IMG/VR virus record: IMGVR_UViG_3300033148_003596
Coordinates: 1 to 49,066 of that record
Strand: one strand, 5' to 3'
DNA length: 49,066 nt
Source of the DNA: a virus
Shown here one piece after another: positions 2,620 to 27,121 of this stretch (position 1 is the first letter of the stretch; each line of letters starts with the position of its first letter). Below the pieces are notes generated by a model. It saw nothing but the letters and a program-made list of their open reading frames with translations, was not told where the DNA came from and did not search any database. The position numbers were made by a program, and so were the translations under genes.

Positions 2620-3984
2620 CTACCACACCTTCGGCGCGTTGTAGATGATTCGTGTCCCTTCATACTCAGTCAACCCAACAACGATATATCGCAACGCATC
2701 GAGGGCATGGAACGCCTCCTTGTCCTCGATTGTATCGGTAAACTCACCGCGTATCATTTTCCGACGATAGGCCCCCAGCTCTGAAATCAAATTCTGACAG
2801 CCTTTGTGGATGACCAGCATCCCATCGGACAGCAACTGTTGGACCCTATCGATTCCTGCCCATACATCTACGATAGGAGGCGCGGTGAGAGGTATCCCCG
2901 CCGCCTGCCAATCCAACCGCGCCTGACGCTCGCTCGGCCCGCCACCAACCCATGCGAATACCCTATGCTCGCCCGTGCGTCTGAGAATGTTTTTGACGTG
3001 CTCTGGCGTTGTGATACCGTACGGCTCGTAGTATTCTTGGTAGACGTGCAGCCTTGGATTCCCTGGCAACACCTCCATCGCGACCCAGATCGCGGCAATC
3101 CGTTGCCCCATCGGATCAATCCCCACAAATACAGGCCAATTAAGCGGTATCTGTTGATCTGGAACAAAGGTGTCGTCCGAAAAGTTATAAATCGCCCCTT
3201 CTGGCGCGGCCCATTGCCCATACAACCAGCGCAATTTACGCGCCCCACTCAAACGCTCCAACCGTTCGATATACGCCTTCCCGTAAGGCGTCCAGTCCTG
3301 CGTGGCCTCGTCCCACATTTTGGGGTTGTCCGTATGATATGTTTGCCACAACTGCAATACCCCAGCCTCGGCCCGCTGTTTGATCCAGTGATACGGCGTT
3401 TCGGGGTTGCAATCGCCGATCAACTGTTGATAGGGCATGACCCCGTTTCGCAGGCCGCCGCCCAGCGTTTCCCACTCGTAGACCGTCAACTCCTCGGCCT
3501 GCAGGACAAAAATAATGTCATACTCGCTCGAAAGCGTGCGGCTTGGCTTGTCCATGCCCAAGACCACGATCTCAGACTTGTTGGGGAGTTTATAACTCGA
3601 TCTGCCACCACGGCTTGGGCCTGTCTCTAATAATGGGTGACCGACCCCCAATACCTCGTTCTCAAACGTGACCAAGCCCGTCGTCGTGAGGCTAACCCGC
3701 GTCTTGCGCACTATCGCCGCTCGCGCCCCAGGCCAGCGATTCATGCAATACCATAGCTTCGATAGCCCTGCTCTCGATTTCCCCGTCCCGCGAGCCCCTG
3801 TCAGAATGATCTCTGGATCAGTAGCTGTCTGCAACCGCGCCGCCGCCCCCCTTGGGTGATAGGGTGGCTCGGCTATCCTGGCTCGTGCCCCTTGTACAAT
3901 ACTCCACAACCCGCGTCGTTGTAATTCAGTCTCGATCAGGGCTTGGTATCTCAGTTTCGTCCTCTGCGCCGTCGTCAGTTGCAT
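2620..3984 (-). CDS. terL: Terminase large subunit
   Basis: 454 residues. The N-terminal ATPase has Walker A GARGTGKS at 63-70. A Walker B-like strand IIFVLQAEEL (about 157-166) uses the Q-A-E-E form seen in some phage terminases rather than DE. The coupling segment is LIGDCNPETPYHW (188-200). The C-terminal nuclease has VFVGIDPMGQ (D290) and HALDALRYI (D429), acidic residues placed as in the RNase H-like metal-binding site. It would translocate DNA into the prohead through the portal and cut the concatemer. Its start lies 59 bases inside the 3' end of the small terminase-like gene. Confidence 0.95.
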   Translation of the reverse strand: MQLTTAQRTKLRYQALIETELQRRGLWSIVQGARARIAEPPYHPRGAAARLQTATDPEIILTGARGTGKSRAGLSKLWYCMNRWPGARAAIVRKTRVSLTTTGLVTFENEVLGVGHPLLETGPSRGGRSSYKLPNKSEIVVLGMDKPSRTLSSEYDIIFVLQAEELTVYEWETLGGGLRNGVMPYQQLIGDCNPETPYHWIKQRAEAGVLQLWQTYHTDNPKMWDEATQDWTPYGKAYIERLERLSGARKLRWLYGQWAAPEGAIYNFSDDTFVPDQQIPLNWPVFVGIDPMGQRIAAIWVAMEVLPGNPRLHVYQEYYEPYGITTPEHVKNILRRTGEHRVFAWVGGGPSERQARLDWQAAGIPLTAPPIVDVWAGIDRVQQLLSDGMLVIHKGCQNLISELGAYRRKMIRGEFTDTIEDKEAFHALDALRYIVVGLTEYEGTRIIYNAPKVW

Positions 3985-4495
3985 TTGTCAGCATCCCTTG
4001 GTAGGCTCGCAATAGTTCCTCATCGCTCATGCCCATAACTGCGATCAATTCATGGGGCAATCCACGTGCCCGACGCTCTAGGTCAATGCCCTTCCCCAGG
4101 AACCGACGTATCTCAGCAGGCCCCAGCCTCATGTCGGGATCTTCCTTCAGTTCCGCAGTTAGCTTTTGCAAGCTCCGACCACCTGCCGATTGTAGCCCTA
4201 TCGCTATCTGCAAATGGCGCTTGTTCATCTCGTCTATCTTTTGCTGCTCTAGAGCCAGTCTACGCATTTGTTGGTAATGATCCCATGCCTCGGCACGGTC
4301 TCGCCAAGCCCACTTGTTAGCGTTGCGCTCCCACGGGCCAGATACCGTCATTATCTTGCCCCCCTCTGCCCCCCTTTGCACTCGCCAAGCTCGATATGCA
4401 CCAAGCAATGACCGCTCTGGCCCAAGTTCGCGAAATAGCGTGAATCTGCTATACCAGAGCATCGGCTCACCTGTTTTACGATCCCAAGGGTTCAT
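3926..4495 (-). CDS. terS: Probable terminase small subunit
   Basis: 189 residues. The N-terminal half has the W-rich, arginine-rich pattern of small terminase-type DNA-binding regions (SLLGAYRAWR, then WAWRDRAEAWDHY), followed by a helical stretch rich in Q, E and K. The C-terminal tail is acidic (DDGAEDETEI). The start ATG overlaps the upstream TGA (ATGA at 4495-4492), and the gene overlaps terL by 59 bases. Position directly before terL supports DNA recognition for packaging. The sequence alone would not exclude another terminase-adjacent DNA-binding protein. Confidence 0.7.
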   Translation of the reverse strand: MNPWDRKTGEPMLWYSRFTLFRELGPERSLLGAYRAWRVQRGAEGGKIMTVSGPWERNANKWAWRDRAEAWDHYQQMRRLALEQQKIDEMNKRHLQIAIGLQSAGGRSLQKLTAELKEDPDMRLGPAEIRRFLGKGIDLERRARGLPHELIAVMGMSDEELLRAYQGMLTNATDDGAEDETEIPSPDRD

Positions 4496-6663
4496 GTCTC
4501 AAATCCTATCCCCACATCACCCAGCGCCCCGACCACCTCTCGCCAGTCGCCCTTGACGAATACAAGCACATTCTGATGTGTCTTGCCCAGCTTGCGGCCT
4601 TTCGGAAATTGGCTTGATACCCGTATCGGCAATGATCCCACCGCCGTTACCAAGATCGCCTCGTTGTAGAGCATGGCCCCTGCATCCTGAAAAGCCGCTA
4701 TCGTATCACTCACGAAGTTGCGGTATAGCCCCTTCTTGTCCCTTATATCGCCCACCACAAAGCAAGCGAAGCGGTTATCTTTGAGCATTGCCACTGAGGA
4801 GGCTATGATCTGCCTGTAGCACGCCAAAAAGTCGGCATACTCTGTGAGGTTGCTCAAGCCACCTTCCGCGTCGCTGTATATCTCGAGATCATAGTACGGT
4901 GGGCAACTAAAGATAAAGTCATACTCACCAGGAGCCAGCGTTGCGATCTCAAGGCTATTGCCCACGATCCACTTGGGCACGTTCGCATCTTCTGTCTGTC
5001 TAATACCGACAATCCAAAACAAATCGCCGTCTTGCAGATATGGCAAGCACTTTGCCTCATAACCAGAATCTACACGCACGCCCTCAATCTCAACGTCCGT
5101 CACGGGCTTGGCATAGTCACCCGTTGGCTCAATAAGCTCTACCCGCTTGGCCCAGTCTGGCGGGGCATATTTGTTCAGACGCTTTCGTGGGTCAGCCCCC
5201 ACGCAAACTCCTACTACGGGAATATCTAGCCCGCCATCTCGCAAGCCCCACAGTAGACCACTTAGAGACATGCCCGACCCAACGGGCGCGACGATCCTTT
5301 GCACATCGGGGGGAATATCTTTGACCTGCTTGCGCGTTTGTTCAACCGCCTCTTGACATTCCATACCAAACGGGATATTCGTCCAGCCATACTCTGCCGC
5401 TGCGTCCTTGGCCCGCTTGATAATGACATTATTGTAGCCCGCCTTGTGCTGTACCACCTCGGCCCCCGCGCCTTGCGCCGCTAATACCTCTGGCGATAGT
5501 TCACCCGTCGGCGTGTGTACTTGGCAAGGAATTCCCATCGCCTTAGCGACATGCGCCACAATGTTTACTTGTGGCGATGAGCGCGAGCCCGCCGTTGTCA
5601 GGCCCGCCGCCCCTTGAGCTAGTGCTATGCACGTCCTAACCTTGCCCCCCCGCACGCCACCAGAAGTGAAATAATCGTCTCTCTTGAACCAGATATTACC
5701 GTGCTTCTCAATAGGCGTTACGGCATTCGCGTCATATATCTCGTTGCGCCCAGGCCCCAGTATCTCCTTCGCCTGTACCTCATTGGCCGCTATCTGCTCT
5801 GCGCTTAGGTCAATCCCCGTATAGCGCCGTCCCAGCTTGGCCGCTACAATGCCCCGCACGCTACCTCCCGCAAAGGGATCAAGCACCTTGCCGTCAGGAG
5901 GGCAAAACCAGGTATAGGCCAGCTCGCAGAGCACGGGGTCAAAGATACTTCCACCAGGAGCCATATTGGCTACGCGGTTATTTGCCTGCGCCCACTCCGG
6001 CAATGGCGGTGCTCCTGTGATATTGCAGGCGGCTTCTCGCGCTATACGATCTTTCGTATAATTGCCCGTATGCTCAATCGGCTCCGTTGCGCCACCCCGC
6101 CCCAGCTCGCTCTCTATCCCTAATGCTATCCAGGCCCGCTTGCGCTCTTGCCAGTACCCCTGCCGTGCGTCCAGCACCGAGAATGGTGGCACGATGAATC
6201 GCTCGGCCAGTGTGCTCCTTGGCTCTTGCTCGTTGTCATCTGCAAGCACCCCATCTGCCACACCTTTCAGTAACTCTTGTAACTCGTAGTCCTGCCACAT
6301 ATTCCCCAGGTCCAGCCCCGCGTCGAGATCAGCTACTAGCTGTTCGGCATTCCATTCGGCTAATTCTGCCGTTCTGTTATCGTATAGCGCCAGCTTGACC
6401 TTCTGCTCGTCTGTAAGCCCCGTCCGCCTGACCGCTATGATCTCTTCGCCGCCGGCCTCAATGACATGCACTCTTCTGATCCCCGCCGCTTCTGCCGCTG
6501 CAATGACGCCATTGCCTGCCAGAATCACATTGTCCTCATCGATCACAATAGACCGTGCAGCACCGACCTCTTGTAGGCTTTTCTGGATCATCTGAAGGTT
6601 GCGCTCCGGATGCCTCCGCGCATTCTTTGGATCAGGCTTCAAGTCAGTCAGCGTTATCTCCAT
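4492..6663 (-). CDS. ParB-like / DNA methyltransferase protein with an inserted PLP-dependent enzyme domain
   Basis: 723 residues. Residues 1-115 are ParB/sulfiredoxin-like (LKPDPKNARRHPERN; ILAGNGVIAAAEAAG). A methyltransferase follows, with motif I KVLDPFAGGSVRG (259-271) and YTGIDLSAEQ (281-290), then motif IV FIFSCPPYYD (583-592) and a C-terminal part. Between them, about 305-558, lies a fold-type-II PLP enzyme of the ACC deaminase / D-cysteine desulfhydrase type: WFKRDDYFTSGGVRGGKVR with presumed Schiff-base K341, TTAGSRSSPQ (356-365) and the phosphate-binding loop VGSGMSLSGL (461-470). Methyltransferase sequence resumes at PKWIVGNSLE. ParB-methyltransferase proteins beside phage terminases are familiar; the in-frame PLP insertion is what stands out. 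A role in DNA base modification is inference. Confidence 0.85.
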   Translation of the reverse strand: MEITLTDLKPDPKNARRHPERNLQMIQKSLQEVGAARSIVIDEDNVILAGNGVIAAAEAAGIRRVHVIEAGGEEIIAVRRTGLTDEQKVKLALYDNRTAELAEWNAEQLVADLDAGLDLGNMWQDYELQELLKGVADGVLADDNEQEPRSTLAERFIVPPFSVLDARQGYWQERKRAWIALGIESELGRGGATEPIEHTGNYTKDRIAREAACNITGAPPLPEWAQANNRVANMAPGGSIFDPVLCELAYTWFCPPDGKVLDPFAGGSVRGIVAAKLGRRYTGIDLSAEQIAANEVQAKEILGPGRNEIYDANAVTPIEKHGNIWFKRDDYFTSGGVRGGKVRTCIALAQGAAGLTTAGSRSSPQVNIVAHVAKAMGIPCQVHTPTGELSPEVLAAQGAGAEVVQHKAGYNNVIIKRAKDAAAEYGWTNIPFGMECQEAVEQTRKQVKDIPPDVQRIVAPVGSGMSLSGLLWGLRDGGLDIPVVGVCVGADPRKRLNKYAPPDWAKRVELIEPTGDYAKPVTDVEIEGVRVDSGYEAKCLPYLQDGDLFWIVGIRQTEDANVPKWIVGNSLEIATLAPGEYDFIFSCPPYYDLEIYSDAEGGLSNLTEYADFLACYRQIIASSVAMLKDNRFACFVVGDIRDKKGLYRNFVSDTIAAFQDAGAMLYNEAILVTAVGSLPIRVSSQFPKGRKLGKTHQNVLVFVKGDWREVVGALGDVGIGFET

Positions 6664-10965: not shown

Positions 10966-11382
10966 TTACGCTTTACGTACTTTTACCGAGGCCCACGTTC
11001 GCAACTCAAACATCTGGGCGAAATCATCGCCCAATCGATCCAACACCTGCTCGATATTCCCTCCTTCCTCCTGAACGATCTCTCGCAACCACGCCGAAAG
11101 AGAATTCAGGTTAAATGTTTCTGCAACCAACTCTGGCGCTACACCACGCACCCACTCCGTCGCTTCGTGTCTATCCCCAGTAAGTTTGGCCGCCAGCATG
11201 TGTGAGACGTACAGCGTTCGCCCATTGATCGTCATGTTCTGAACGCCGCGTTGCTCGAAAATCGTCAAGGCAATTTCCTCAAGCTGGCTAAACTCCTCAT
11301 TGATTTGGCGGAGCCGTGCTTTCAGAGTGTCGCGTTCAGTAGCCAGGTCGACCATGCGAGACAATATCCCGATCTCGTCCAT
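10966..11382 (-). CDS. Phage early protein with coiled-coil N-terminus (Gp157-like layout)
   Basis: 138 residues. The start at ATG 11382 is preceded by AAAGGGG. The helical, coiled-coil-prone first third (residues 8-42, heptad pattern ATERDTLKARLRQINEEF) leads into VQNMTINGRTLYVSHML, then ATEWVRGVAPELVAETFNLNSLSAW and a final basic strand SVKVRKA. Proteins of this layout are common in phage early operons and resemble the Gp157/nuclease-modulator type, but the assignment is tentative. It is the first gene after the long structured leader at 11404-11513. Confidence 0.5.
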   Translation of the reverse strand: MDEIGILSRMVDLATERDTLKARLRQINEEFSQLEEIALTIFEQRGVQNMTINGRTLYVSHMLAAKLTGDRHEATEWVRGVAPELVAETFNLNSLSAWLREIVQEEGGNIEQVLDRLGDDFAQMFELRTWASVKVRKA

Positions 11383-11403
11383 AATGCCCCTTTCTGCTAG
11401 ATA

Positions 11404-11513
11404 GGATGGGCCCCGACAGCGTTGCAAGTAGGCGCATGGGAGGGCGCGTTTGCGGGGGTGCTGTCAAGGCCCTAATCCTCAGAGTAAAGCGGATAATTTC
11501 CTCGTGCCCTCCC
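11404..11513 (-). promoter_or_regulatory. Structured 5' leader with pseudoknot topology
   Basis: The leader runs from the expected transcription start (about 11518) to the ATG at 11382. Helix B pairs 404-420 with 460-478: GACAGC/GCTGTC, then GGGCC/GGCCC across a 2x2 loop, then GGAT/ATCC past a 2-base bulge. Helix A pairs GGGAGGGC 438-445 with GCCCTCCC 506-513. The strands interleave, so both can form only as a pseudoknot or as alternatives. Most other promoters in the window have leaders of 45 bases or less. The function is unknown; an autoregulatory or ligand-binding leader is possible. Confidence 0.5.
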
Positions 11514-20627: not shown

Positions 20628-20918
20628 CTACTGTTCCTTCGTGATTTCCTCAAGTACGCCAACTTTGTGGCCTGCTTCAATGAGCTTGGCGATAATCGGC
20701 TTCGCGTCTGTGATGGGAATAGATACAAAGTCAAGTATCTCGCCTAGGCATCCCCTGCGTGTCTCTAGCGAAACGCCACACAACTGTGCTATTACTTGTG
20801 CATCTTGCTCGTATGCCTCATAGGTCTGCTTATTGACAGGGAATAGCATAACGAGGGCTGGTTGCTGTACCTTGATGCGGATGTATATCTGTTGCCATTG
20901 GAAGGGTTTCTTGCTCAT
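20628..20918 (-). CDS. Standalone MutS domain I-like protein, 96 residues
   Basis: The order of elements matches the N-terminal mismatch-contacting domain of Mut[21 protein letters not shown] against the family's YlxLKaqhPd-LLFyrmGD; [20 protein letters not shown] against FYElFyeDAkxaaxlLdItL; then [20 protein letters not shown] against IPMAGvPyHaxxxYlxkLvxxGykV, ending GVLEEI against aicEQ. The tyrosine and glutamate of the wedge are present, but the wedge phenylalanine position is T. There is no clamp or ATPase, so it cannot be a full repair protein. Start at 20918 overlaps the methyltransferase stop (ATGA). Role unknown; a DNA-binding partner of the methyltransferase or nuclease is possible. 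Confidence 0.65.
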
Positions 20919-20937
20919 ATCCCCAGCCTCGGCTGTA
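20915..20937 (-). repeat. 23-bp repeat, methyltransferase 3' end copy
   Basis: Exact match to 20565-20587; includes the methyltransferase stop codon. Confidence 0.75.
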
Positions 20938-21550
20938 ACTGTGCCTCTGCGATCCTTCTCTGTGCAATCTCAAAGTAACCCTGATCTATCTCGATGCCGA
21001 TGAATGAGCGTCCTGTCTTGACGCAGGCGACGCCCGTTGTGCCAGAACCCATAAAGGGATCAAGGATGGTGTCGCTAGGTTGGGTATAATTCTCAAGAAG
21101 CCAGCACATAAGTGCAAGTGGCTTTTGTGTTGGATGATAGCGTTCTTCTGGACGCTGCTTGATAAAGCCGCTCCAGCGCCATACAAACTTTCTAACAGCT
21201 TTTTTGTGTGACGTCCAGGCCAATTCGCAGTCAGCAAAATCATTCGCAGTGCATTTGTCCCAGACGACCCATGAACTTGAGGCGGGTAGCCAGTTGGCAT
21301 AATAGTTCCCGCCGAATAAGACAACGTGCTTGCCAATTCTGAGCAGATGATCTATGTAGACACGACTTAGCTTTTTGTCCCACTGATAGTCACCATAGTC
21401 TCGCGGTTTTGCCAAGCTCTCCCTTGACATATTCTTGCGGCCCGATTCGCCTATCCCATACGGCGGGTCTGTTATCACCGCATCCACGCTATTCTCTGGC
21501 ATAGTTCGCATTATGGCAAGGCAATCACCACAATGTAATTCAATCGTCAT
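20915..21550 (-). CDS. DNA adenine N6-methyltransferase (beta class)
   Basis: 211 residues with the permuted motif order. Motif [11 protein letters not shown] (26-34) comes first, and motif [12 protein letters not shown] (163-173) with FIGIEID lies near the C-terminus, with target-recognition sequence between ([31 protein letters not shown]). The DPPY motif indicates an amino-methylating enzyme of the adenine type. It follows the HNH gene by 15 bases and is coupled to the MutS-I gene. The pairing with an HNH nuclease suggests self-protection or host-restriction evasion. The recognition sequence cannot be told from here. Confidence 0.9.
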
Positions 21551-21565
21551 TGCCTATACTCCCCG

Positions 21566-22075
21566 TCATTTTACAAGAAATACCTCTTTCCCCTTCGGCT
21601 CCTTATCATGACACTTTTTACAAAGCGTTAGCCCATTGTCTATCGCAAACCGCAATTCGGGGTACGTCGCGAAGGGTTTAATGTGATGAGCCTCAAGCCT
21701 TATTAAATGCCCCTTTTTGCTTCTTGCCCCACATTTTTGGCATGTCCAGTTGTCTCTCTTGAATACGCTTTCTCGCCATAACTTGTATCTTTCGCCATTT
21801 CTGTCTTTTCTATTTTCATAATTCACTCCCCCCCTCCAGTTTGGATTATTTGAACCAGTTCTATCGCGTGGTTTTCGTGCCACTTTCTTTTTGCCGATTT
21901 GCCACTGAAAGTAGCATTCTTTTGAACAGAACTTATTCTCGCCCTTTTTGATTGCTGAGGGCTTTCTCCAAAACTGTTTACCACAAACCCAACAGAAAAA
22001 GAAGCTCCCCTTTTTATGTGCTTCTGATATTTTCCTTGCTCTTTCCTCTGGGTTTGAATAAACCCCCTTTGGCAT
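21566..22075 (-). CDS. HNH endonuclease with NUMOD3-like region
   Basis: 169 residues from ATG 22075 behind AGGAGAAATAG. Two cysteine pairs near the start (CWVCG 28-32; C50 and C54) form a zinc site. GSNNPNWRGG (74-83) matches the NUMOD3 DNA-binding motif of homing nucleases. The HNH core has CQKCG (112-116), LEAHHIKPFATYPELRFAI (about 128-146) with N147, and LCKKCHD (151-157). It is lysine-rich and its DNA is more A+T-rich than its neighbours, consistent with arrival by transfer. It is preceded by a 130-base structured leader and followed by a methyltransferase. Confidence 0.9.
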   Translation of the reverse strand: MPKGVYSNPEERARKISEAHKKGSFFFCWVCGKQFWRKPSAIKKGENKFCSKECYFQWQIGKKKVARKPRDRTGSNNPNWRGGVNYENRKDRNGERYKLWRESVFKRDNWTCQKCGARSKKGHLIRLEAHHIKPFATYPELRFAIDNGLTLCKKCHDKEPKGKEVFLVK

Positions 22076-22098
22076 ACTATTTCTCCTACAACAGGAAA

Positions 22099-22204
22099 GC
22101 CCCAAGGTACAGAAGGCTCCGTGCGAGAAAAGCCGTCATGTTACCTTGGGGCCGGTTCCACATTATAAAAAATTCCTTCCGTTTATGACGTTAGCTTTTC
22201 TCGC
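22099..22204 (-). promoter_or_regulatory. Structured leader RNA of the HNH operon, pseudoknot topology
   Basis: Helix A: GCCCCAAGGTA (22099-22109) with TACCTTGGGGC (22142-22152), 11 pairs. Helix B: GCGAGAAAAGC (22123-22133) with GCTTTTCTCGC (22194-22204), 11 pairs, plus CGTCA (22134-22138) with TGACG (22186-22190), 5 pairs past a 3-base bulge. The order A-B-A'-B' makes an H-type pseudoknot or two exclusive states. It fills the whole leader from the expected transcription start (about 22204) to the ribosome site at 22083-22087. It matches no RNA family I know. Confidence 0.65.
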
Positions 22205-24065: not shown

Positions 24066-24472
24066 GGCATCACCTCTAGTATTGATAGAAATACCTCATA
24101 TGGCACTTCTAGCGCCCCGATCTCTTGCTCCCGTGCCGCTGTGACATTGGACTTGGCTATCTCCCATGTAGACCACCAGTGCCCCAAACCCATTACGCCA
24201 ATTGCATACATCGCAGTCTCAGTGTTTTCGCGCGGATCGTATCGCAGATCAGGGTCAGAGTCACGTCCCATGTGATAACGTACTGTTTCCCACGGCCCCC
24301 TATCATCAGGGTCAGAATGCCACTGGTAGAGGCCTACGGCCTCGCCATTGTCTCCTATCGCTGCTGCGTCAAAGTCCGACTCTAGCTCGCAGATGCGCAG
24401 AGTGAGTGCAGGGTTCACCCCATAGGTAAGAGCAAAGAATACAATCAGGGCCTTGATAGCTATGATTGACAT
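24062..24472 (-). CDS. Lysozyme-like / lytic transglycosylase protein, 136 residues
   Basis: ATG 24472 with GGAGGTACGCC. An N-terminal hydrophobic segment (IIAIKALIVFFALTYGV) serves as signal or anchor. Then comes the goose-type/SLT catalytic pattern LRICELESDFDAAAIGDNG with EAVGLYQW (25-51), E31 being the likely catalytic acid. The rest includes the HWWSTWEIA helix. It would cleave peptidoglycan in the periplasm. It is separate from the main lysis cassette (27964-29848), so it may serve in entry or as a second lysin. A decayed partial copy lies at 23706-23880. Confidence 0.7.
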   Translation of the reverse strand: MSIIAIKALIVFFALTYGVNPALTLRICELESDFDAAAIGDNGEAVGLYQWHSDPDDRGPWETVRYHMGRDSDPDLRYDPRENTETAMYAIGVMGLGHWWSTWEIAKSNVTAAREQEIGALEVPYEVFLSILEVMP

Positions 24473-25194
24473 GGCGTACCTCCGAATACTAGCGGCATCT
24501 GTGCCTTATATCCAGTGGCTCGTTCTGCCAATGTCACTTTCCCTCCAGGATCAAGCGTACTCATCCAGCGGCCTCTTTTCTTGGCCTTATGTTCCTGGAC
24601 ATACCGCTCCAACGTGCTCGCCTTTTCGTATAAGTCCCGATGATCACGCCAGAGTTGATGCCACTCGCGCTCGGTCTGAAACGGGCAGAGCCAGCACTTG
24701 CTGCGTATTGGTATTGGTAGGCCCGCATCCCGGATGATCTCGATACACGAAAGCCCTGGCCGCATGTTGGAAGGGTTGCGCATGATCTCCCTATCTACCA
24801 AGGGATAGATATAATTTGGGTTATGAGCACGGTGTCTCTCATCTATCGAGATGCCAAGCGCCTGCACCCTTCCGTCAGCATAGTTCACCATCGGCGCAGT
24901 CTTGTACTTAGCAGTGCAAAAGCGCGGAAAGGGAAAGGGTAAGATACCATAGTAGAGACAATACTCATAGAGAGTCTTGTCTCGCGCCTTCTTTTCCTTC
25001 CGCCACTCACCATCAAGCACCTTGATTGATAGCCCATATCGCGCCAGCCAATCATCCATGATCGCTCGGTATGCTACCGTCTCAGGCCATTCACAGCCTG
25101 TGTCGGCATGAACGACCTCGCCCCGCCAGCCGTCTTGCACCATGAGAACAACTAATGCTGTCGAGCCCACCCCTGCACCGTAACTGATGATCAC
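24460..25194 (-). CDS. PAPS reductase-like PP-loop enzyme
   Basis: 244 residues with a GTG start. The PP-loop is ISYGAGVGSTAL (3-13; A-type variant of SGGxxS). HADTGCEWPE (29-38) is the characteristic HADTGxExP-like segment of adenylylsulfate/PAPS reductases and DndC-like proteins. Cysteine pairs RFCTAKYK and SKCWLCPF are positioned for a cluster or zinc. Phage members of this superfamily are often of unknown substrate. Activation of a substrate by adenylation for nucleic-acid or cysteine metabolism is possible. The start codon has no clear ribosome site, and coupling to short upstream frames may drive it. Confidence 0.75.
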   Translation of the reverse strand: MIISYGAGVGSTALVVLMVQDGWRGEVVHADTGCEWPETVAYRAIMDDWLARYGLSIKVLDGEWRKEKKARDKTLYEYCLYYGILPFPFPRFCTAKYKTAPMVNYADGRVQALGISIDERHRAHNPNYIYPLVDREIMRNPSNMRPGLSCIEIIRDAGLPIPIRSKCWLCPFQTEREWHQLWRDHRDLYEKASTLERYVQEHKAKKRGRWMSTLDPGGKVTLAERATGYKAQMPLVFGGTPCQS

Positions 25195-26012: not shown

Positions 26013-26128
26013 TATACCTCCGGCTTGTGAAACAACATATTGCTCCCCACGGACACAAGCCTCCAGCGACCCGTCACAAATGATATGAGCATCAATGCGC
26101 CGACGATAACGAGTTTGGTGGTAGTCAT
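26012..26128 (-). CDS. Small membrane-anchored protein, 38 residues
   Basis: ATG 26128 overlaps the pentapeptide gene stop (ATGA) and has AGGAGGATGAGCG. Begins [20 protein letters not shown], one hydrophobic helix, then [11 protein letters not shown] and a short tail. Credible but of unknown role. Confidence 0.45.
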
Positions 26129-26802
26129 CGCTCATCCTCCTGATATATGCTCAGTAACACGATGTCCGAACAGCGAAATTTGCCGTCTGTGTTGTATGGT
26201 ACGCAGATTGAGCCCAAGTTCTTGCGCCAAGGAACAAGAACTTTCCAGATAAGAATCTTTTCCTCATCGCCCTTTCGTTGCTTGATCCACTCTACCGTGG
26301 CGACGTTGATCCCACAACCACACAGGTCTGTCCTGAACATATTGCATTCCTCGTGCAGCTTGCTGCTAGGTTTTATGTTCCAGTATTCTGGCGGGGTCGC
26401 ATATATACCGAACGCCTTATACGCGATGATCCCATCATCCGCGATCTCAAAATGTTCACGTAACCACTCAGCAGGTTGCAAGAGCCCTTGCGCCCCACTT
26501 AGGTTGGCCCCGCTCAGGTCGGCCCCGCTCAGGTTGGCTCCGTGCAGGTTGGCTCTGTGCAGGTTGGCCCCGCTCAGGTCGGCCCCGCTCAGGTCGGCCC
26601 ATCTCAGGTTGGCCCCGCTCAGGTCGGCTCCGCTCAGGTTGGCTCCGTACAGGGTTGCCCCGCTCAGGTCGGCCCCGCCCAGGTTGGCCCATCTCAGGTT
26701 GGCCCCGCTCAGGTCGGCTTTGGTCTTGGGGTTTTCCTTGTACCACCTATTCCATTCCCTAACGCTACTTTTCAATAAAGAAACCCATTTCGGATTCATC
26801 AT
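26125..26802 (-). CDS. Pentapeptide-repeat protein with a DUF5758-like C-terminal domain
   Basis: 225 residues from ATG 26802 with AAAGGACGGAG; a longer in-frame start is unlikely. Residues about 27-105 are tandem A(D/N)LSG-type pentapeptides ([20 protein letters not shown] and so on), forming a right-handed quadrilateral beta-helix. The C-terminal domain has [34 protein letters not shown] and a terminal strand, as in phage pentapeptide proteins with this extension. Some pentapeptide proteins mimic DNA and inhibit gyrase, but nothing here shows that. Coupled to small membrane proteins by ATGA. Confidence 0.8.
26497..26721 (-). repeat. 15-bp tandem repeats encoding pentapeptides
   Basis: The unit on the plus strand is close to AGGTYGGCCCCGCTC, repeated about fifteen times within the pentapeptide gene. 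Units can recombine, so the repeat number may vary between related phages. Confidence 0.8.
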
Positions 26803-26854
26803 CGTTCTCCGTCCTTTCTGATATTTCTTTCGACTGCCGAGATTTCTCGTTTCA

Positions 26855-27121
26855 TCATACTCCTTTCTCTTCATTTTCGACAATGAGCCAACCAGGGCGA
26901 TCTTTGCCGCCCATCGTGTAATCGATGAAATCCCAAACGGCTTGTTCTAGCTTCTTTAGGCTCTTTGGTAAACATCGTGCGTCAACCTGTGAGGCCAAAA
27001 ACACGGGCCATACGCAAAAAAGCTCTTTACCATTATGCTTTACGTTCAGCACGATGGCGGCCATTTTCACTGCCTCGACGAATAGCTCCTTGCGTCTCTT
27101 GCGCTCATTCACCCTTACCAT
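26855..27121 (-). CDS. Unknown basic protein, 88 residues
   Basis: ATG 27121 with AGGAGGGACA. The N-terminus is basic ([20 protein letters not shown]), then [20 protein letters not shown]. No family recognised. It shares an operon with 27115-27456 and 27453-27806. Confidence 0.55.

Follow-up and report, generated by a model that had tools for sequence, protein, structure and literature searches.

Phage genes that join a ParB-like domain to a DNA methyltransferase (MTase) and lie upstream of the terminase represent a known setting of base modification, and for the ParB-Tls loci a targeting of phage DNA by ParB has been suggested (PMC6536676); fusions of ParB with N6_N4_Mtase domains were also covered by a survey of the ParB fold (PMC12704722). 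Concerning thymidine hypermodification, the DNA of Pseudomonas phage M6 is known to carry 5-(2-aminoethyl)deoxyuridine (PMC6449724), and the genome paper of the M6-like phage SN1 lists an enzyme dependent on pyridoxal phosphate (PLP) in the M6-type modification cassette (PMC9476957). Taken singly, fusions of ParB with an MTase and tailoring enzymes of phages that use PLP are both on record. The papers searched (Iyer et al. 2013, where a prior mention is possible, lay outside that search) contain no case of the two combined in one protein, nor do they report that this combination recurs in two PLP clades or has the additional companions described below. PLP is not mentioned in the searched text of the ParB-Tls paper (PMC6536676), the ParB-fold survey (PMC12704722) mentions neither PLP nor pyridoxal, and the Pam4 genome paper neither pyridoxal nor methyltransferase.

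The protein in question is encoded in a stretch of viral DNA of 49,066 nucleotides (positions 1 to 49,066 of IMG/VR record IMGVR_UViG_3300033148_003596), the whole of which is called the window here. Its reading frame is open throughout and gives a single intact protein (Table 1). Families of ParB-like proteins in PHROGs match residues 3 to 145 or so, the family phrog_498, designated 'DNA methyltransferase', matches with E=1.1e-108, and two Pfam profiles exceed their cut-offs: N6_N4_Mtase (PF01555) with 44.3 bits (cut-off 26.7) and PALP (PF00291) with 60.8 bits (cut-off 35) at residues 305-492. The MTase motifs are kept in the order I-II-III-IV (DPFAGGS, GIDLS, WIVGNS, SCPPY), the PLP domain being placed between motifs II and III. 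In an alignment with homologues devoid of PLP (for example, L009, L013 and L030), the two MTase halves are connected at this site by a short loop, which leads from the helix after motif II to the strand of motif III; the PLP domain therefore is an insertion. The original prediction, made from this DNA alone, had given coordinates, strand and the starts of motif I (residue 262) and motif IV (residue 586) correctly, and its claim of an in-frame insertion instead of a read-through of two genes agrees with the PALP match between the halves and with the short loop joining them elsewhere. Read-through or an assembly chimera can be ruled out, since the identical insertion occurs in many independent contigs and in the phages Pam4, R6L and ZS04.

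Table 1. Positions in the window of the fusion gene, its domains and residues, and the two terminase genes
Feature	Position	Strand	Basis
Whole ORF, ParB / MTase-N / PLP / MTase-C fusion, 723 aa	4492..6663	(-)	Pfam, PHROGs, AF2 model
ParB-like domain, residues 1-140	6244..6663	(-)	phrog_15396 E=2.2e-27, phrog_620 E=4.9e-27
MTase N half, residues 148-303, motifs I and II	5755..6222	(-)	Pfam N6_N4_Mtase, phrog_498; aligned with PLP-less homologues
Motif I DPFAGGS, residues 262-268	5860..5880	(-)	sequence
Inserted PLP domain, residues about 308-558	4990..5742	(-)	PALP E=1.8e-16; VIA-align Z 23.9 (1j0a), 23.8 (4d9c)
Lys341, Schiff-base lysine	5641..5643	(-)	conservation; alignment to known enzymes
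S363-P364-Q365, altered 'asparagine' loop	5569..5577	(-)	S/P/Q at 97-99%
G462-S463-G464 phosphate-binding loop	5272..5280	(-)	94-100% conserved
D532..Y535-E536-A537-K538, counterpart of ACC deaminase DPVYEGK	5050..5070	(-)	D, Y, E, K 100%; aligned to 1f2d
MTase C half, residues 559-712, motifs III and IV	4528..4989	(-)	phrog_12517, phrog_498
Motif IV S-C-P-P-Y, residues 586-590	4894..4908	(-)	sequence; family-wide CPPY
Terminase small subunit	3926..4495	(-)	phrog_6299 E=2.5e-8; overlaps the stop of the 723-aa ORF by 4 bases
Terminase large subunit	2620..3984	(-)	phrog_2 E=3.1e-22

An AlphaFold2 (AF2) model of the full protein, built from 53 sequences, reached a mean pLDDT of 86.5, the blocks of the PLP domain mostly lying above 83. 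In this model the insert folds as a PLP enzyme and not as an unrelated domain: comparison by VIA-align gave Z scores of about 24, the best solved match being an ACC deaminase homologue (1j0a, rmsd 2.9 over 249 residues), together with D-cysteine desulfhydrase (4d9c, rmsd 3.2 over 249 residues). K341, which aligns with the GNK-region lysine of both ACC deaminase and D-cysteine desulfhydrase, is invariant in 71/71 non-redundant sequences of the window's own clade (clade A), so the degraded PLP site that was looked for among relatives did not occur. Y535, E536 and K538 are likewise invariant among the 71-72 clade-A sequences; the Tyr-Glu pair within DPxYEAK (both residues in 72/72) agrees with ACC deaminase 1f2d (DPVYEGK), unlike D-cysteine desulfhydrase (DPVYTGK). 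As to the hallmarks of PLP enzymes that had been read from the sequence, the lysine and the Gly-rich loop stand, but the 'asparagine-type loop' proved to be modified, with S-P-Q in place of the S-N-Q of ACC deaminase and Pro at position 364 in 70 of 72 clade-A relatives. Because the active site is conserved and this loop altered, catalysis is likely to be kept and the substrate changed. The PLP proteins of the second clade (clade B) have a conserved Lys of their own and a Y-D-A-K motif, and their profile found no match by sequence in the PDB.

Searching for the same domain order, we found that the architecture recurs in many environmental phages and in two PLP clades; far from being rare, as had been considered possible, the combination is common in these phages. 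The scan of IMG/VR yielded 157 relatives for clade A and 405 for clade B, of which the best 80 of each were used. Open reading frame maps revealed that in either clade the PLP domain may interrupt the MTase between motifs II and III; elsewhere it is attached C-terminally to the MTase or encoded as a separate gene, which often overlaps the MTase gene and sometimes is located between ParB and MTase genes. Within this sample, an MTase lies within 8 kb at 125 of the 138 non-redundant PLP loci. For clade A this holds at 64 of 70 loci (41 inserted, 5 C-fused, 18 separate), the inserted share being biased upward as the scan was seeded mainly by inserted forms; this bias does not explain the linkage of the separate PLP genes. 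For clade B, 61 of 68 loci are linked (3 inserted, 58 separate), and the ends of 54 of the 58 separate genes are found within 300 nt of the MTase gene. Most of the loci without an MTase within 8 kb lie where their contig ends, and in some larger records the MTase is found elsewhere; among the exceptions, L149 (5512-7779) shows a different order in one ORF, PLP being followed by ParB and then by the methyltransferase. In the 50,697 records of annotated phages, the MTase occurs in 23, PLP of clade A or B in 5 and both in 4 (hypergeometric P=1.6e-13, or 2.8e-10 if the two Erythrobacter phages are counted once). The fifth record with PLP, Staphylococcus phage Alsa_1, has its PLP gene near the gene of a distant MTase relative carrying SPPY; this clade-A-like PLP gene lies a few genes past the MTase (L305, 2816-5576), and between them a Cys-containing protein without a Pfam match is encoded. 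Microcystis phage Mae-JY30 possesses a stand-alone PLP gene (L067, 5570-6280), 71.6% identical to the clade-B query and annotated as 'DNA modification methylase'. In bacterial genomes just two loci match the clade-A profile, both in metagenome-assembled genomes. In the MTase tree, much of which is poorly resolved, the branches with strong support require that the label 'inserted A' changed at least 7 times.

The MTase domain itself departs from the familiar amino DNA methyltransferases. Motif I is DPFAGGS in 214 of the 239 non-redundant family members, most having FAGGS and not FxGxG, and motif IV, for which D/N/S-P-P-Y/F/W would be expected, is CPPY in all 235 of these members in which it is readable. 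The best VIA matches to a model of the insertion-less MTase were RNA methyltransferases, namely TrmN (3tma, Z 18.5) and the archaeal Trm11 and Trm14; DNA amino-MTases were not among the matches listed, an absence that carries no weight as evidence. In a scan for which only the MTase served as seed, PLP was lacking nearby at 58 of 80 loci (short contigs included). Residues distinguishing the PLP-bearing from the PLP-less MTases were sought and no clear difference emerged, the motifs being identical. Since the PLP-less MTases retain the same motifs, the MTase reaction should be independent of PLP, and the PLP step looks like an optional second one. It should also be noted that the usual annotation of ParB-MTases is that of plain m6A/m4C enzymes, which counts against reading them as agents of hypermodification.

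In the window, the fusion gene is followed by the terminase small subunit, the terminase large subunit and the portal, and clustering of the neighbouring genes in related records returned mainly packaging genes. A gene resembling PAPS reductase (24460-25194, minus strand; PF01507, E=5.6e-5) is present in the window as well. Such a gene stands beside the module in Erythrobacter phages and in 2/49 related records overall, and a sulphur-based (Dnd-like) scheme was rejected as a general partner because of this low count. Other genes on the minus strand include a second, small DNA methyltransferase (20915-21550; phrog_67, N6_N4_Mtase E=1.2e-29) adjoining an HNH nuclease gene (21566-22105), a pentapeptide-repeat protein (26125-26883; PF00805, E=1.1e-30) that may act as a DNA mimic, and a match to the DUF7307 'Pam3 gp33-like' family (10966-11427; E=3.9e-11), which may point to a cyanobacterial host.

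Two companion domains accompany the module in part of the loci. A Cys-rich domain with weak similarity to DUF3109, below the cut-off, was found at 15 loci, overlapping contig copies counted, with the MTase in 15/15 and PLP in 13/15; it may be inserted after PLP (L004, L111, L129, L131), inserted in an MTase without PLP (L230, 6323-8081; L290, 6977-8507), placed between the MTase and a C-terminal PLP domain (L132, L141) or encoded separately (L006, L108, L120, L143). The other companion, a dioxygenase resembling Asp/Asn-beta-hydroxylase (PF05118, above the cut-off), occurs at 11 loci, ten of which also contain PLP: ahead of the MTase C half in L258 (1-1725), behind it in L302 (1-1815), and as a gene of its own in the vicinity of MTase and PLP genes at nine further loci, several of these genes sitting between the two. 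In the separate form (for example, L261, 8564-9724; L183, 6814-7992), the N-terminal 150 residues or so have no Pfam match. Of the dioxygenase copies, one weakly resembles L-proline cis-4-hydroxylase (E=5.8e-4). Both the dioxygenase and the PLP families are typical of amino-acid chemistry, and the dioxygenase companions point in that direction.

Kinship with the M6 system is seen in gp52 of this phage, annotated as threonine dehydratase, which matches both PLP profiles (about 50 and 40 bits), resembles clade B in its C-terminal pattern (FYDLKAW...FWN) and groups with it in a tree containing long branches (support 98/92); kinship of the phage PLP proteins among one another, as set against cellular enzymes, is moderately supported (89/56), in a region where long branches meet. 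In M6, gp52 is flanked by gp51, an amino acid:DNA transferase (PF18724), and gp53, a radical-SAM-like protein (PF04055, E=1.8e-4, below the family cut-off), gp55 corresponds to the 5-hmdU kinase helical domain, and the CPPY methyltransferase was not found. Neither the thymidylate-synthase family (hydroxymethylase) nor the amino acid:DNA transferase ADDT was detected in the window and the 48-49 related environmental records, some of which may be fragments; the kinase domain HMUDK was absent from the window and seen in one of these possibly fragmentary records. A 5-hmdU scheme was therefore rejected, the upstream enzymes of M6 missing from the window and nearly all related records, so that the base adduct must have another origin here. 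Only the CPPY domain constantly accompanies PLP. The idea in the original prediction that the PLP enzyme serves base modification has thus gained strong circumstantial support from the conserved PLP site, the near-obligate MTase linkage, the adjacent terminase and the M6 kinship, but a thymine route of the M6/ViI type is not supported.

We consider it fairly probable that the PLP domain acts in a packaging-linked module for DNA base hypermodification in a tailed phage; DNA as the substrate, the order of the steps and the product are what we infer for it. The ParB domain probably would guide the protein to phage DNA near packaging, and the SAM-binding CPPY domain would act first, placing an adduct on a DNA base. 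The PLP domain, a member of the ACC-deaminase/D-cysteine-desulfhydrase branch, would then perform amino-acid chemistry on the base-attached group, such as decarboxylation, elimination or replacement at an alpha-amino acid, or else would make that group. In some phages the dioxygenase or the Cys-rich domain may also tailor the adduct, and the product would be a bulky, probably charged base blocking host nucleases. Were the adduct an amino acid, its simplest source would be SAM, through its aminocarboxypropyl group; the transfer of this group to the base, where an alpha-amino acid would remain, is the chemistry we prefer, admittedly a guess. PLP-dependent decarboxylases were reportedly described by Lee et al. 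in 2021 as acting on base-attached amino acids. That the CPPY domain is a SAM-dependent aminocarboxypropyl transferase, with PLP, Asp-hydroxylase-like and Cys-rich domains tailoring its product and with 5-hydroxymethyluracil bypassed, is a tentative and rather doubtful proposal; if true, it would amount to a new class of DNA hypermodification.

Should the domain serve auxiliary metabolism by acting on a free amino acid (of D-cysteine, ACC or serine/threonine type), being fused only for shared expression, one would readily understand that its closest folds are free-amino-acid enzymes, that the Tyr-Glu pair of ACC deaminase is retained and that many PLP copies are separate genes. We nevertheless hold this to be unlikely: a free enzyme would be expected often far from the MTase, which is seldom so in the loci examined, the substrate loop has changed from S-N-Q to S-P-Q, and insertion into the middle of an MTase by two PLP clades, together with the M6 kinship, favours a shared task. 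An invariant catalytic Lys and invariant cofactor loops across dozens of divergent sequences also make it quite improbable that the domain is a non-catalytic part of the MTase, be it structural, DNA-recognising or regulatory (for instance, a sensor of PLP or amino acids). The loop between motifs II and III does tolerate an added domain without damage to the core, and most members of the MTase family seem functional without PLP; stand-alone and C-fused PLP proteins, however, would be unable to act likewise as an internal recognition domain.

Another scheme would let the PLP domain itself use SAM, transferring aminocarboxypropyl to the base by way of a vinylglycine-type intermediate, the MTase domain mainly flipping the base. 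PLP enzymes of such a type are known for small molecules, and here a SAM fold and a PLP domain are combined in one protein, the latter adjoining the SAM adenine-binding motif III. PLP-less members share the MTase motifs, however, so that the MTase domain seems to be catalytic alone, and we regard this scheme as very improbable.

If the hypermodification reading is true, many environmental phages build amino-acid-bearing DNA bases via SAM and PLP chemistry with one or two genes, ParB-methyltransferase genes beside terminases would be tied to hypermodification and anti-restriction, functions could be assigned to PHROG families of unknown function, and a compact enzyme for DNA labelling would become available. 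The module is present in isolated phages (Pseudanabaena phage Pam4, Erythrobacter phages R6L and ZS04, Microcystis phage Mae-JY30).

Among the known systems, the CmoA-CmoX-CmoY pathway of 5-carboxymethylcytosine (PMC12783734) shares with the proposed scheme the non-methyl use of a SAM-type cofactor, which serves as a handle for hypermodification of the amino-acid type, and often has ParB genes nearby; CmoX, however, has an SPPC motif and requires CmoA, whereas the window MTase has CPPY, and a Cx-SAM scheme was rejected, as a CmoA homologue occurs in 0/50 records. With ACC deaminase and D-cysteine desulfhydrase (PF00291), the phage domain shares the fold, the Schiff-base Lys and the Gly loop, and with the former also the Tyr-Glu pair; these enzymes comprise about 325 amino acids, whereas the phage domain has about 250, is embedded in a DNA enzyme and differs from ACC deaminase in its S-P-Q loop. 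The M6 cassette has in common with the window module a related PLP enzyme and a terminase gene close by, but proceeds from 5-hydroxymethyl-dU by means of a kinase, an amino acid:DNA transferase and a radical SAM enzyme (PMC9476957), whereas hydroxymethylase, kinase and transferase of the M6 type are missing from the window. Finally, the ParB-Tls phage fusions are characterised by a ParB N-terminus, an MTase and a terminase directly downstream (PMC6536676), all three of which are present in the window; what sets its protein apart from them is the PLP domain inserted between motifs II and III and the CPPY of motif IV.
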